The notes under the pieces: model-generated
Database searches by the model: none
Seen by the model: the letters and a program-made list of their open reading frames with translations, nothing else
What the model was told of the DNA's origin: nothing
Assembly (NCBI RefSeq): GCF_025836995.1
Contig: NZ_CP107546.1
Span: 3,162,001 to 3,226,000, forward strand
Source: Microbacterium sp. M28
Lineage (GTDB): Bacteria; Actinomycetota; Actinomycetes; Actinomycetales; Microbacteriaceae
DNA: 64,000 bases
Direction of reading: 5' to 3'
In this document: positions 55,316-59,072 of the stretch, piece after piece
Layout of the letters: every line of letters starts with the position of its first letter
Numbering within the stretch: the stretch's first letter is position 1
Program-made: the position numbers and the translations under genes

Positions 55316-56680
55316 CTAGCTCGCGTCGGCCGCCTCGGCCGCATCGGATGCTCGCAGGACCGGCTGCTCAGCCGCCCGGCGAGCGATCAGCCAGATGCCA
55401 GCGGCGGACGCGAGGAAGAGCGCCGCGAGCACCACCCAGCCGACCAGCCCGTACGTGATCGCGGTGGCGTTGACGAGAATCGGGGCCGCGAGCGCGCCGA
55501 CCGAGAACCCCATGCCGAACACGCCCTGATAGGCGCCCGCCCGTACCGAGTCGGCGAGTTCGAAGCTCAATCCCCATGCCCCGGCCTGCGACAGGATCTC
55601 GGCGAACGTGTGCAGCACCGCCGCCGAGAGCAGCACGGCGATCGCGACCCAGGTCGGCAGACCGGCGGCGAGCGCGTAGACGATGCACGCTGCGGCCATC
55701 AGCCACCCGGCGATCAGTGTGACACGTCCCGCGGTGCGCACGTCGTGCGTGCCGCGGGACGCGCGGACCTGGAACAGCACCACGAGGGCCGTGTTGAGGA
55801 TCAGGATGACGGCGACCACGACCTCCGGCGCCGTGGTGCGCGTCGTGATCCAGAGCGGGACGCCGAGCTCGGCGACGCCGAACTGCATCCCGAAGACCGC
55901 CGAGAGCAGTGTGAGCAGCAGATATCGGCGGTCGCGCCAGGGTGAGCGGCGACGCCAGTCCGCTCGGGCCGCGCGCACGGCATCCGCCGTCGTGAGCGTA
56001 TCGATGGAGCCGGTCTCGGTCCGCACCGGTTCGACGCTGCGGGTCGGCGCGTCGACCGACTCCGGCAGGCGAAGCAGCGGCAGAGTCCCGAGGATGCCGA
56101 TGACACCGGCACCGACGATGACCGCCCGGTAGGCCTCCGGCGTGCCGAGCGCGAGAGCGATCGCCGCGATGCCGGAGCCGATGGCGATCGAGAGGTTCGT
56201 CACCGTCCGCAGCACGGCACGCGCGTGCACCCGCTTGTCCGGGGCGAAGCCGCGGGCGATGATCGCCGACCGGGACGAATGCGCGATCGTGTCGAAGAAC
56301 CCGGCGAGGGTGGCGATCACCAGCGCGGCGACGAACGTGTTGGCGAACGCGTACGTCGCCAACAGCACCGCCCCGACCGCTTCGAAGACGAACGTCATCC
56401 GACGCGCGCTCCACCGATCGGCGAGCCATCCCCCGAGGAATGACGCGAGGACGCCGAACGCGCTCGAGACGGCGAGGACCACCGCCGCCTCACCGGCTGA
56501 CAAGCCGATGATGAGCGTGAAGTACAGGACCGTGACCGAGAGGAAGACGCCGCGGCCGATCCGTGAGACGGCCGTGGACGCGACCAGCGCCCGCAGCAGG
56601 GGATCCGACAACGACTGGGCGATGCGTGTACGCAGACTCGGCTTCAACGCGATCGGGTGGGGAGCATCCTGCAAGGTCAC
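55316..56680 (-). CDS. MFS transporter
   Basis: A 454-residue, 12-helix major facilitator. Motif A appears as GGWLADRWSARRMTF in the first half, and the long central loop and TFAEILSQAGAWGLSFEL in the second half are typical of the YfcJ/tetracycline-like MFS subset. Starts at GTG 56680 with no ribosome-binding site; GAGACT seven bases upstream could be a leaderless -10. Substrate unknown. It is divergent from the hydrolase gene by 51 bp and lies upstream of the heparinase-like gene, so sugar transport is conceivable. Confidence 0.85.
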   Translation of the reverse strand: MTLQDAPHPIALKPSLRTRIAQSLSDPLLRALVASTAVSRIGRGVFLSVTVLYFTLIIGLSAGEAAVVLAVSSAFGVLASFLGGWLADRWSARRMTFVFEAVGAVLLATYAFANTFVAALVIATLAGFFDTIAHSSRSAIIARGFAPDKRVHARAVLRTVTNLSIAIGSGIAAIALALGTPEAYRAVIVGAGVIGILGTLPLLRLPESVDAPTRSVEPVRTETGSIDTLTTADAVRAARADWRRRSPWRDRRYLLLTLLSAVFGMQFGVAELGVPLWITTRTTAPEVVVAVILILNTALVVLFQVRASRGTHDVRTAGRVTLIAGWLMAAACIVYALAAGLPTWVAIAVLLSAAVLHTFAEILSQAGAWGLSFELADSVRAGAYQGVFGMGFSVGALAAPILVNATAITYGLVGWVVLAALFLASAAGIWLIARRAAEQPVLRASDAAEAADAS

Positions 56681-56731
56681 ACGCCAGTCTCACACGGCCG
56701 ACGGACATCGCCGTTCGGATATCGTCCTCAT

Positions 56732-57490
56732 ATGCCGTCCCGCCTGCTCGCCCCCGAGGGCATCCCCGCCAGCATCCAGGAGTTCGAACACGGCGGCGCA
56801 ACGCTCGTCGTCGAGAGATTCGGCCAAGGGCGTCCGTTCGTCGTGCTGCACGGCATCGGCATGGGCCGCAGTGTGTTCCTCGATCTGACCGGCCGGCTGC
56901 GCGGCGAGGTCGTCGCCGTTGACCTCCCCGGCTTCGGCGAGGCGCCCGAACCGGTGCGCACGCTGACGATGGAACGCCACGCCGATCTCGTCGCCGCCTA
57001 CCTGCGCTCCGTCGACCTCAACGGTGTCGTCGTGATCGGCCACTCGATGGGGAGCCAGGTCGCCGCCGAGCTCGCCGCGCGGCATCCCGAGCTCGTGGCC
57101 GGAGCCGTGCTCGCCGGTCCGAGCGTGAACAGCGCGGCGCGCACGATCGGCGCCCAGGCCGGTTACCTGCTGTGGGATCTTCTGGGCGAGTCCCCTGTCG
57201 TGCTGTGGCGCGGCGCCAGAGAGTACCTGCGCGGTGGGCCGCATCTGATCCGCAAGATGCGCGCGATGATCGTGCACCGGCCGGAGGACGCGTTCCCCCG
57301 CATCGACTGTCCCGTGCTGGTGCTGCGCGGCGAGTCCGACCCGCTCGCGCCGATGAGCTGGTGCGAGGAGATCCTCGACCTGGTCCCTGACGCCGAACTC
57401 GAGGTGATCCGCGGCCACGGCCACGAGACGCTCATCAGCGACGCGAGTCCGGCCGCCGAATTGATCCAGGCCTTCGCCGACCGGCTCTGA
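56732..57490 (+). CDS. Alpha/beta hydrolase
   Basis: A 252-residue serine hydrolase. VLHGIGMGRSVF provides the oxyanion hole, VVIGHSMGSQVAAEL the nucleophile elbow (Ser), LVLRGESDPLAP the acidic residue, and GHGHETLIS the catalytic His. A typical cytoplasmic esterase/lipase-like enzyme of unknown substrate. TATCGT six bases before the ATG suggests a leaderless start. It ends six bases before the palindromic element at 57494. Confidence 0.9.
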   Translation: MPSRLLAPEGIPASIQEFEHGGATLVVERFGQGRPFVVLHGIGMGRSVFLDLTGRLRGEVVAVDLPGFGEAPEPVRTLTMERHADLVAAYLRSVDLNGVVVIGHSMGSQVAAELAARHPELVAGAVLAGPSVNSAARTIGAQAGYLLWDLLGESPVVLWRGAREYLRGGPHLIRKMRAMIVHRPEDAFPRIDCPVLVLRGESDPLAPMSWCEEILDLVPDAELEVIRGHGHETLISDASPAAELIQAFADRL

Positions 57491-57493
57491 CTC

Positions 57494-57593
57494 CGTTCAC
57501 AACTCCTCATGGAGCGCGGATGAGCGGCGGCCGGCCGGCGCCGTTCCGGCGTTCGCCCCGGAGCGGACCGGGATCGATGAGGAGTTATGAGCG
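57494..57593. repeat. Palindromic element, left copy flanking the DUF559 gene
   Basis: Inverted arms ACAACTCCTCAT (57499-57510) and ATGAGGAGTTATGAGCG (57577-57593) enclose about 66 bp. The outer bases CGTTCACAACTCCTCAT match the motif at 58559 and 58625 (inverted). The left arm supplies the last codons and the stop of the DUF559 gene (His-Glu-Glu-Leu-stop). Confidence 0.75.
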
Positions 57594-58453
57594 CCAAGTC
57601 GGGCCGCGAACGCGTCGATCACCTCGGCCAGCTGCCGCCGGACGGTGTCCGAACCGTCCAGGATGTCCGTCGCCAGAGGACGGACGGTGACGTAGCCTGC
57701 GCGCGCCGCGGCGATGTCACGACGGCGGTCGTCGACCTGCTTGTCCCACCCCTCATGGAAGGCCCTGCTGTCGCACTCGACGATCAGCCAGCCCTCGACG
57801 AGAAAGTCGACCCGGCCGATCCCCGGGATCGTCACCTGCGTCTCGAAGCGCACCCCCAGGCTCCGCAGCACGAGCCGCACGAACGTCTCCGGCCCGGACT
57901 CGGCCGAGGCATCCACGAGCCCGATCAGCGGTCGGAAACGGGCAGGCAGGCCTTCGAAGATCTCCCGCAACTCCTCCGCCGACAGCAGTCCATGGTGCAG
58001 GACACTGTCGAGAGTGGCGATCGCCGCGCGCGGTGGCTGGCACCTTATCGACAGACGCACCGCGTCACGAAGCGACCCGACGTGCAGCGGCGCACGGTCG
58101 TCGGTGACGGCATCCCAGTGCACGCGGGTCGTCGACGCTCTCGGCGCTCGCACGCGCGACGTGCCGGGCACGACGTGCACATGCAGCGCCGTGCACGTCA
58201 GCACGAACACACCGATCATCCGCAGCAGCGATAGGCAGGACAGTCGTCCGCCGATGCGGACCGCCTCTGCTATGTCCGCGGTGACGGGTCGCACGGCGTA
58301 TCGATCGCGCCGCAACCGCACGATCGTTCCCGCTCTCACGGAAGCCGTGATGTCCCGTCCCGTCATGCCGGCCAGACGGAGGTCGGATCGAGTCACGATG
58401 ACTCGCGCGAAAGCCTGGGCGGTGCGCTGCGGGACGGTCTGCTCGCTCTTCAT
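57497..58453 (-). CDS. AbiEi-like winged-helix plus DUF559 endonuclease-like protein
   Basis: A 318-residue protein. Residues 1-75 resemble the AbiEi type IV antitoxin winged helix (VIVTRSDLRLAGMTGRDITA, VRLRRDRYAV). The C-terminal half is DUF559, a Vsr-like PD-(D/E)XK fold: IPGIGRVDFLVEGWLIVECD, then FHEGWDKQVDDRRRDIAAAR and VTVRPLATDIL. The D...ECD core is intact. ATG 58453 follows GAAGGT; the longer frame upstream enters the right palindrome. The last 33 codons lie in the left palindrome and are probably not part of the fold. No neighbouring toxin gene is present. Confidence 0.82.
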   Translation of the reverse strand: MKSEQTVPQRTAQAFARVIVTRSDLRLAGMTGRDITASVRAGTIVRLRRDRYAVRPVTADIAEAVRIGGRLSCLSLLRMIGVFVLTCTALHVHVVPGTSRVRAPRASTTRVHWDAVTDDRAPLHVGSLRDAVRLSIRCQPPRAAIATLDSVLHHGLLSAEELREIFEGLPARFRPLIGLVDASAESGPETFVRLVLRSLGVRFETQVTIPGIGRVDFLVEGWLIVECDSRAFHEGWDKQVDDRRRDIAAARAGYVTVRPLATDILDGSDTVRRQLAEVIDAFAARLGAHNSSSIPVRSGANAGTAPAGRRSSALHEEL

Positions 58454-58555
58454 CACGGTACCTTCGGCCATCCGGCGGGTCCCGTGGGGCGCGAACGCGC
58501 GGATGAGAAGAACCTGCAGCGACTCCGTCGCGGTGCAGGGCGGGTGGGGAGCCGG

Positions 58556-58643
58556 CGCACAACTCCTCATCGATTGCGCGGAAACCACGGTCACCGCGAT
58601 GGAATCCGCATCTTCCCGCGATCAATGAGGAGTTGTGAACGCG
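58556..58643. repeat. Palindromic element, right copy flanking the DUF559 gene
   Basis: Arms ACAACTCCTCATCGATTGCG (from 58559) and CGCGATCAATGAGGAGTTGT (58617-58636) pair with few mismatches around about 38 bp; TGAACGCG follows. The left arm is in the same orientation as the left arm of the element at 57494. It lies 103 bp upstream of the nuclease start and 40 bp from the mrpG stop. Confidence 0.75.
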
Positions 58644-58682
58644 AAACGCGCCGGACCGCCGGACTGCGCCAGCCCGCCCGGC

Positions 58683-59072
58683 TCACCCGGCGGCGGGCGG
58701 CGTCTGCTTCGAATCGGCGAGGTCGTCCACGACGAGGTGCCGCTGATCGGTGGTGCCGTTGCGGTACGCCTGCCGTCCGACCATGTGCGCCGACAGCGGT
58801 GCCGTGGCGAACTGCATGAGGACCACGGGGGCGACCAGCGCCGCGCCGAGGAGGATGCCGCCGATCGACCGCTGCGACAACGCGATCGCGATGCAGATCA
58901 GCAGCAGACCGAGCACCTGCGGCTTCGTCGCCGCGTGCAGGCGCGATGGCACGTCGTGGAAGTGCAGCAGCCCGACCGCGGCCGACAGGCACAGCAGCGC
59001 TCCGCACAGGATCAGGATGAGCACGATCCAGTCGATGACGGCGCCGGGGATCTCGAGACCGAGAAGGTTCAT
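58683..59072 (-). CDS. mrpG: Mrp/Mnh antiporter subunit G
   Basis: A 129-residue membrane protein with three helices. LSAAVGLLHFHDVPSRLHAATKPQ is the diagnostic MnhG/MrpG/PhaG block, followed by APVVLMQFATAPLSAHMVG. Last gene of the operon; a 30-residue polar tail extends it a little. Coupled to mrpF by ATGA. Confidence 0.9.
   Translation of the reverse strand: MNLLGLEIPGAVIDWIVLILILCGALLCLSAAVGLLHFHDVPSRLHAATKPQVLGLLLICIAIALSQRSIGGILLGAALVAPVVLMQFATAPLSAHMVGRQAYRNGTTDQRHLVVDDLADSKQTPPAAG

Follow-up and report, generated by a model that had tools for sequence, protein, structure and literature searches.

REP-RAYT is the best-known system in which a chromosomal gene keeps its own palindromes, and REPs often number hundreds. 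In the parts consulted of two reports, RAYT genes are described as flanked by their own short palindromes, often arranged as inverted doublets, with dispersed copies; syntenic orthologous RAYT genes are flanked by different repeat classes, and REP repeats are over-represented where the cognate RAYT gene is absent (PMC3686654, PMC3733652). Among DNA-binding proteins of another kind, AbiEi and Rv2827c bind inverted repeats of 23 bp with intervening gaps of 3 and 13 bp, according to the part consulted of a third report (PMC7319586), which provides a precedent both for the size of the arms considered below and for spacings differing by about one helical turn. A Vsr-type domain bearing the name MTES_1575 is described in the consulted part of a fourth report (PMC3710099).

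The locus analyzed here lies in a window of 64,000 nucleotides (the whole stretch of DNA that was analyzed) of Microbacterium sp. M28, contig NZ_CP107546.1, positions 3,162,001 to 3,226,000. A preliminary description of this DNA proposed that a nuclease gene is embedded in its own repeats in the manner of REP-RAYT. The proposal is supported by the recurrence of the arrangement in many orthologues and paralogues of Microbacterium, of other genera of the Microbacteriaceae, and of other families in the order. We attribute a probability of about 0.6 to the reading of the locus as one unit of a gene-repeat system working like REP-RAYT from unrelated parts, the protein recognizing a private bipartite palindrome. 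The locus comprises the following features.

57494..57593, no strand: 3' bipartite element, arms 57494-57519 and 57568-57593.
57497..58453, minus strand: gene for a predicted AbiEi-fold plus Vsr/EDxHD nuclease protein, 318 aa from the ATG at 58453.
57914..58408, minus strand: AbiEi-antitoxin-like part (residues 16-180; predicted winged helix plus second domain), the proposed arm-binding module.
57596..57910, minus strand: predicted Vsr/EDxHD-type nuclease domain (residues 182-286), with invariant residues and a fold match.
58555..58641, no strand: 5' bipartite element, arms 58558-58578 and 58617-58637.
56657..57490, plus strand: alpha/beta hydrolase gene (Abhydrolase_6, 1.4e-22), the conserved left neighbor, which marks the orthologous site.
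58686..59069, minus strand: Na+/H+ antiporter subunit gene (PhaG_MnhG_YufB, 7.6e-19), the conserved right neighbor, which marks the orthologous site.

The four copies of a shared motif reported around the gene were all recovered: ACAACTCCTCAT is present at 57499 (+), 58559 (+), and 58625 (-), and the copy at 57577 (-) reads ATAACTCCTCAT, with one mismatch. The reported extension of the motif, CGATCGCGG, holds only as an approximation and differs in every copy. A fifth match, with two mismatches, is located at 2489; shuffled windows searched with up to two mismatches contained 1.54 matches on average and 5 at most, a number reached by 1 of the 100 shuffles. The four copies are more adequately described as two bipartite elements, each consisting of inverted arms of about 20 bp and a mostly free interior. 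The arms of the 3' element (26 nt) are 81% complementary and those of the 5' element (21 nt) 90%. The 3' element spans 90 bp between its outer ACAACT/AGTTAT edges, or 98 bp if the outer GTTCAC-type edges are considered; the corresponding values for the 5' element are 78 bp (ACAACT/AGTTGT) and 86 bp. The 3' element begins 3 bp past the stop codon of the hydrolase gene and, as the preliminary description had it, contains the stop codon of the nuclease gene. The longest open reading frame of the latter (57497-58594, minus strand) has its first GTG (58594) within the 5' element. Close homologues mostly align from well within this frame, and since several of the closest align only from about residue 46-52, the ATG at 58453 is the probable start codon; the 5' element lies approximately 100 bp upstream from it. 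A search of Rfam over positions 57000-59000 returned nothing at the gathering score and one sub-threshold match.

The AlphaFold2 model of the protein, obtained with 59 homologues, had a mean pLDDT of 91.3. Residues 16-180 of this predicted model matched AbiEi (6y8q_A), which was ranked first by Foldseek (E 6.5e-5) and gave a middling VIA Z of 7.5 over 163 residues (4.4 Å). For residues 182-286, the best structural match was the homing endonuclease I-Bth0305I (3r3p_A; Z 14.4, 2.1 Å, 96 residues), followed among other Vsr-like structures by 3hrl (Z 13.9) and 1cw0_A (Z 12.6). Residues E189, D216, E226, D228, H233, R245, and D246 were invariant in the 59 aligned homologues, and we take E189, D216, H233, and D246 to be catalytic. 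The alignment initially contained 67 rows (A1, from which L153 and L154 had been omitted beforehand) and was reduced to 59 rows (A2) by dropping eight wrong-frame rows (L157, L159, L160, L163, L165, L172, L191, and L193). Pfam searches over the 59 homologues detected MTES_1575 in all 59, DUF559 in 43, and AbiEi_4 in 38; in the window protein itself, MTES_1575 and DUF559 fell below the cut-offs. There was no transposase family among the seven Pfam families matched by the 59 homologues. NCBIfam provided no match for the protein, and PADLOC reported AbiEi alone (E 0.044). The preliminary assignment of the gene as AbiEi-like agrees with the top Foldseek match and with the frequency of AbiEi_4, and its assignment of DUF559 to a Vsr-like nuclease fold is borne out, on the predicted model, by the structural matches and the invariant residues.

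The predicted enzyme is therefore unlike the Y1/HUH tyrosine transposase of REP/BIME (REPIN)-RAYT (TnpA-REP) systems, since it combines an AbiEi fold with a Vsr/EDxHD nuclease and no transposase family was matched. It shares the winged helix and second domain with AbiEi of type IV AbiE systems and Rv2827c, as judged from the 6y8q match of the predicted model, but carries in addition a nuclease domain, and its gene is adjacent to the hydrolase gene and the MnhG-type antiporter subunit gene rather than to a DUF1814 toxin gene. The nuclease fold and the invariant acidic and histidine residues are those of Vsr and of EDxHD homing endonucleases such as I-Bth0305I. In contrast to the latter enzymes, the window protein is encoded by a free-standing gene with its own dispersed palindromes, and neither of the two adjacent genes is a methylase or mismatch-repair gene.

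Homologues of the window protein were detected at E ≤ 1e-30 in 210 of 295 genomes of the genus and, when the protein was searched against loci containing elements, matches abutted the elements in several loci. The association was analyzed in 69 loci, corresponding to ranks 1-70 of the homologue list minus one locus at a contig end, with a 16-mer inverted-repeat scan blind to arm sequence. The scan found 103 pairs in the 58.7 kb beside the gene versus 33 in the 318 kb elsewhere. A pair was present on the 5' side in 45 loci, on the 3' side in 48, on both sides in 37, and on at least one side in 56, so that the nuclease gene is flanked by its own repeat class as RAYT genes are. Counting against the association, no qualifying pair was found on either side of the gene in 13 of the 69 loci. 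In 61 of these loci, the zone beside the gene contained 93 pairs, which corresponds to 1.66 per kb if the entire zone is counted and to 3.28 per kb if only its intergenic part is. The remaining intergenic DNA (52.8 kb, based on rough gene calls) had 8 pairs (0.15 per kb) and coding DNA (238.7 kb) had 24. Relative to this remaining intergenic DNA, pairs are accordingly 11- or 22-fold denser beside the gene, depending on the zone considered. A detector based on a RAYTCM core, applied to 70 loci, found 70 pairs, of which 69 were no farther than about 400 bp from the gene and the last was at 1.8 kb; a control with the reversed core gave 11 pairs in 377 kb of the same loci.

These data bear on the possibility that the elements are ordinary intergenic palindromes, such as terminators or structural repeats, which gather by chance beside a poorly constrained gene. 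The elements are mostly extragenic and some interiors contain hairpins that resemble terminators by eye, as this explanation would have it. In addition to the excess in density, the 5' and 3' elements of 22 of the 37 two-sided loci were identical in 14 or more of 16 letters, versus 3.6% of comparisons between loci, although the remaining 15 two-sided loci missed the arm match; the elements also fall into separate spacing classes. We consider ordinary palindromes very improbable. The chance double terminator envisaged in the preliminary description is likewise at odds with a density and an arm matching that do not equal those of other intergenic DNA and of other loci.

The arm CACAACTCCTCAT had 24 matches in the 3.37-Mb genome of the window (up to one mismatch), versus a single match for the reversed pattern. 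Together with weaker arms, and with pairing only between arms 40-140 bp apart, these matches formed 13 bipartite elements, two at the nuclease gene and 11 elsewhere, with lengths of 86-87, 96-98, or 108 bp and no others. Exact pairs of the arm (N50-80 between arms) were present in 18 of the 295 genomes of the genus, and pairs of the shorter core ACAACTCC (N60-90) in 85, with no match for the control in either case. In a scan of 84,980 genomes (GTDB species collection, contigs of at least 3 kb), which may omit records of the genome of the window or of very near relatives, the exact pair was found in 46 stretches, all from Microbacterium records. These stretches contained 56 arm pairs at 24-400 bp: 46 were 79-81 bp long, three 91-92 bp, and one 102 bp, the remaining six sharing an arm with a shorter pair. 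A looser detector used near homologous genes revealed lengths of 67-68 bp (13 elements), 77-78 bp (51), 89-92 bp (5), and 100 bp (1). The length modes are separated (67-69, 77-80, 89-92, and 100-102 bp); patterns and detectors with a set spacing (N50-80, N60-90, and a total of 64-104 in the RAYTCM-core detector) bound the lengths that could be found, whereas the single-arm searches of the own genome, in both families described here, were free of such bounds. We relied on the separated modes since a vector-length measure of periodicity was uninformative, most lengths being 77-79. The interior is mostly unconserved, with some conservation at the center of the 90-bp class (7 sequences). Steps of about one helical turn across a mostly unconserved interior suggest two protein sites located on one face of the DNA.

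This architecture differs from a GTAG/GGAG-tagged REP hairpin in that it consists of two spaced inverted sites of about 20 bp and a mostly free interior. Arms such as CACAATTCAGCA or GCACGACCCGGGAAC do not have a GTAG/GGAG tag, and TCA arms contain GGAG internally. As in REP-RAYT, copies of the same class are dispersed in the genome, but their numbers are low (13 elements in the own genome and a maximum of 16 exact pairs of a single type). In the AbiEi family, binding of inverted-repeat pairs in the own promoter is likewise documented, according to the part consulted of the report (PMC7319586). Here, the arms are farther apart than 3 and 13 bp (whole elements of at least 67 bp in the arm family of the window), a second element is present at the 3' end of the gene, and further copies are dispersed. 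An RNA element was also considered and rejected, as steps of 10-11 bp at fixed total length suit helical phasing of DNA better than growth of a stem; the interiors folded only slightly better than shuffled sequences (mean z -0.55; 8% below -2; n = 83). The interiors of the family of the window are mostly unrelated, since only 7 of 78 pairwise comparisons of elements from the own genome exceeded the 99.9% limit of the null, and copy-and-paste of whole elements is therefore not visible in this family. No target-site duplication was recognized by eye at the elements of the own genome. For comparison, a classical MITE or insertion sequence has terminal inverted repeats, a target-site duplication, and a homologous interior; the interiors of a second family, described below, are homologous. 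At 1032-1569 of locus L120 (G056:C11 near 45863), a 69-bp palindrome whose stem is longer (ACAACTCCTCAAGTCTCCGAC...) occurs three times; it is apparently another repeat, sharing the core by chance or descent.

The gene of the window type is located between antiporter subunit genes and the hydrolase gene. Both neighbors were present in 24 of 61 loci and one of them in two more, and we therefore treated the corresponding genes as orthologues. Their elements carry TCA, CCGGAG, CAGCA, or CAGGAG arms; the types that differ from that of the window gene include the CTCCGGAG and AATTCAGCA classes. The preliminary description asked whether the motif clusters beside DUF559 genes and whether orthologous genes lack it. 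Taken literally, the answer is mixed: 11 of the 13 copies in the own genome are away from the gene, and many orthologues do not have the exact motif. However, such orthologues often keep the architecture with another arm, and pairs of this kind are rare away from these genes (0.15 per kb of other intergenic DNA). The idea that the exact motif is specific for DUF559 genes was rejected, as orthologues carry different arm types.

At a single locus, orthologues can have different arms, and arm type tracks the dispersed copies, with exceptions. In the following comparisons, arm classes were assigned by eye, the TCA class includes genome G237 (truncated gene), pair counts include pairs at the gene, and genomes G143, G185, G208, and G116 (CAGGA-type genes), as well as genomes without an element, were placed in neither arm class. 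Exact AATTCAG pairs were present in 19 of the 295 genomes of the genus, with a maximum of 16 in G227, the highest number for one type. Of the 10 genomes with CAGC-type gene arms, 9 had such pairs; the corresponding numbers were 1 of 16 for genomes in which the gene has TCA or GGAG arms (p = 3e-5) and 10 of 285 for the remainder of the genus (p = 2e-11). All nine of these genomes had at least one AATTCAG pair at least 8 kb from the gene or on a different contig. Exact TCA pairs were found in 4 of 5 genomes of the TCA class (one with a truncated gene), 1 of 10 of the CAGC class, and 4 of 11 of the GGAG class. Exceptions include G142, which harbors 13 exact TCA pairs and a locus gene with GGAG arms, no gene for these copies having been identified among the loci fetched; G116, with 7 exact TCA pairs and a CAGGAC-arm gene; some genomes with CAGC-type genes that also hold ACAACTCC pairs (e.g. 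G001); and G087, where no homologue reached E ≤ 1e-30 and 8 AATTCAG pairs are present. A cognate gene was not found at the locus in G014 and G278. We read the mismatches between gene and dispersed arms as copies left over after an arm switch, although other, unseen genes could own them; left-over repeats following a class switch are described for REPs in the part consulted of one report (PMC3686654). Both the association of syntenic orthologues with different repeat types and the presence of repeats where a cognate gene was not found are shared with REP-RAYT.

Protein columns that track arm class were compared in 27 of the 59 alignment rows, with classes assigned by eye and shared ancestry uncorrected; the comparison provides weak evidence for co-variation of protein and arm. 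Of the top 25 columns, 22 are located in residues 1-180, which contain 159 of the 240 columns compared, and two in the nuclease domain, which contains 81; many are at positions 93-109 and 126-134. The element at 1500-1578 of locus L122 is chimeric: it pairs a TCA arm with a GGA arm and may represent an intermediate in arm switching. Two elements of differing arm type, about 15-30 bp apart, occupy one spacer in L089, L092, L108, and L082.

The site of the gene was read in 20 loci chosen for the absence of a strong homologue. In eleven, the gap was short (60-220 bp) and devoid of this element, although a lone arm was present in one of these gaps and other palindromes in two; seven had longer gaps with other sequence. 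Genome G087 had a solo AATTCAG element, and G237 a gene that kept its AbiEi part and lost the nuclease: at about 262-867 of the corresponding locus (L297), the 5' element is kept, the nuclease region is lost, and the 3' element is missing one arm. The latter genome still has 7 exact TCA pairs, which had been taken for gene-less elements until the truncated, TCA-flanked gene was found at the locus. Filled, empty, solo-element, and truncated-gene sites are all observed at this locus.

The coexistence of these four states at one locus, together with the structural similarity to I-Bth0305I, might point to a selfish gene of the homing type. The EDxHD nuclease would cut alleles devoid of the unit, and repair would copy the unit together with the elements on its flanks; solo elements would be what is left of lost genes. 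We regard this scenario as improbable: the gene of the window type occupies one and the same site in 24-26 of the 61 loci and thus looks vertically inherited, and the 11 elements of the own genome that are away from the gene are mostly unrelated inside, unlike remnants of a single unit. The mobile unit considered in the preliminary description has to be amended: the gene of the window type occupies one conserved locus, and it is the element that disperses.

The spacer of one dispersed element was also followed across the genus. Both neighbors were recovered in 27 of 30 fetched loci; four of these spacers contain an element (own genome included), 16 are bare (12-62 bp), and seven contain other sequence, a pattern of presence and absence that looks like insertion or loss. 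The four elements are of the TCA type in the own genome, CTCAGCAT in G125, CTCAGGAC in G116, and the TCA+GGAG type in G142; those of G125 and G116, recognized by eye and unflagged by the scan, have the arm type of the gene at their own locus. More generally, orthologous elements of different species keep arms and length with a diverged interior (e.g. L067/L072 and L055/L061), and some have switched arms (L100/L083/L122). In the same orthologous spacer, L324 (G113) contains an unrelated palindrome (CGAGTGGTCAGTTTCGGC...GCCGAAACTGACCACTCG), which suggests that this spacer attracts palindromes of several families, and L305 (G021) contains direct repeats of about 13 bp (CTGATCCGACACT).

Elements that hold arms and spacing while their interior diverges could also be operators. 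The protein would then be a pure regulator, an AbiEi-like repressor of its own gene and of a regulon, with a nuclease that is incidental or serves another role such as phage defense. This explanation accounts for the persistence of dispersed elements where the gene was not found (G087) and for the presence of a pair on the 5' side in 45 of the 56 loci where at least one was found, and AbiEi-family antitoxins autoregulate via inverted-repeat pairs in their own promoters, according to the part consulted of the report (PMC7319586). However, among 73 dispersed elements, 35 are located in tandem spacers, 24 in convergent spacers, and only five in divergent promoter regions, with three inside open reading frames and six undetermined (rough gene calls; 10 of 83 unique elements, from loci holding the gene, omitted and the three L120 copies kept). 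The preponderance of tandem and convergent spacers argues against a plain regulon, although tandem spacers can hold promoters. A pure regulator also leaves the second element at the 3' end of the gene without a role, and the orthologous spacers described above resemble sites of insertion or loss. We consider it unlikely, if less so than homing.

The genome of the window contains a second gene of this kind (G000:C1:962841-963698; DUF559 6.8e-7, AbiEi_4 0.0019). It is bracketed by two copies of an 85-bp palindrome, 98% identical to each other and unrelated to the element of the window, with GCACGACCCGGGAAC arms. Six further copies are dispersed, which gives eight including the two at the gene, and arm matches amount to 36 (up to two mismatches) versus 5 for the reversed pattern. 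All eight copies align over their length with a mean column identity of 81%, a doubtful 78-bp arm pair (L335) having been omitted from the alignment. Copying of whole elements is therefore visible in this second family. A third homologue in the same genome (L025/L340, G000:C1:2207602-2208405) has one 66-bp element (GAACTCCTGCAGAATC), found on the 3' side only. Among 20 further MTES_1575 loci scanned in four other genomes, four (L216, L221, L224, and L226) had matched elements on both sides, with still other arms, four (L214, L215, L225, and L228) had no elements, and the other 12 were one-sided or doubtful.

Beyond the genus, the gene was detected in 134 of 199 sampled genomes of the family, representing 63 of 85 genera (E ≤ 1e-20), and in 68 of 159 sampled genomes of the order (E ≤ 1e-15). 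In 29 loci of the family (27 from other genera and two from this genus), a pair was present on at least one side in 21 and on both sides in 13, with densities of 1.54 per kb near the gene versus 0.14 far from it. In 21 loci of other families, with pairs down to 40 bp allowed, the corresponding numbers were 17 and 9, with 1.61 versus 0.14 per kb. The arm match in these loci outside the family was close in L346, L358, L360, L366, and L368, fair in L363 and L365, and absent in L357 and L359.

The data show the architecture, the association of elements with the gene, the co-variation of arm type with the gene, and presence or absence at orthologous sites, whereas the domain folds are predictions. 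Our preferred reading, that of a gene-repeat system, can be formulated as follows. An AbiEi-type DNA-binding protein with a C-terminal Vsr/EDxHD endonuclease would recognize its own bipartite palindrome, two protomers binding the two inverted arms of about 20 bp on the same face of the DNA thanks to the helical-turn spacing. Based on the predicted fold and on the precedent of AbiEi, we infer that the AbiEi part may bind the arms and that the 5' element, on the promoter side, may serve autoregulation by the bound protein. The nuclease would nick or cut at or near the element, and repair or recombination would then copy or correct the element elsewhere, further copies scattering mostly into DNA behind genes. 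This second part, in which the nuclease may spread or maintain the elements, is suggested by their dispersal and by the concerted change of arms in the sequences compared. Cutting followed by copying through repair would explain the dispersal, the switching of arms in concert with the gene, and the matched arms on both sides.

As far as tested, no part of this system is homologous to REP-RAYT, and the organization is analogous. We see an even chance that the proposal extends to AbiEi-Vsr fusion nucleases of the actinobacterial order of the window in general, each owning private, co-evolving, helically phased palindromes that it would spread, convert, and maintain by cutting and repair, with at least two such pairs in one genome, as an independent and non-homologous REP-RAYT-like invention. 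No description linking such nucleases to repeats was found in the open-access literature among the matches listed (titles and starts of abstracts), nor was DUF559 found there together with 'inverted repeats', and an undetected prior description is possible. If the proposal is true, it would provide a second case of a gene that keeps its own palindromes, built from an unrelated enzyme and unrelated repeats, and would allow the question of which features of such systems are general to be addressed. The large and uncharacterized DUF559 and MTES_1575 families would gain a concrete candidate substrate, with arms that can often be read from the flanks of the gene. Since orthologues differ in arm sequence, they would also form a natural resource for working out how AbiEi-type proteins recognize DNA.
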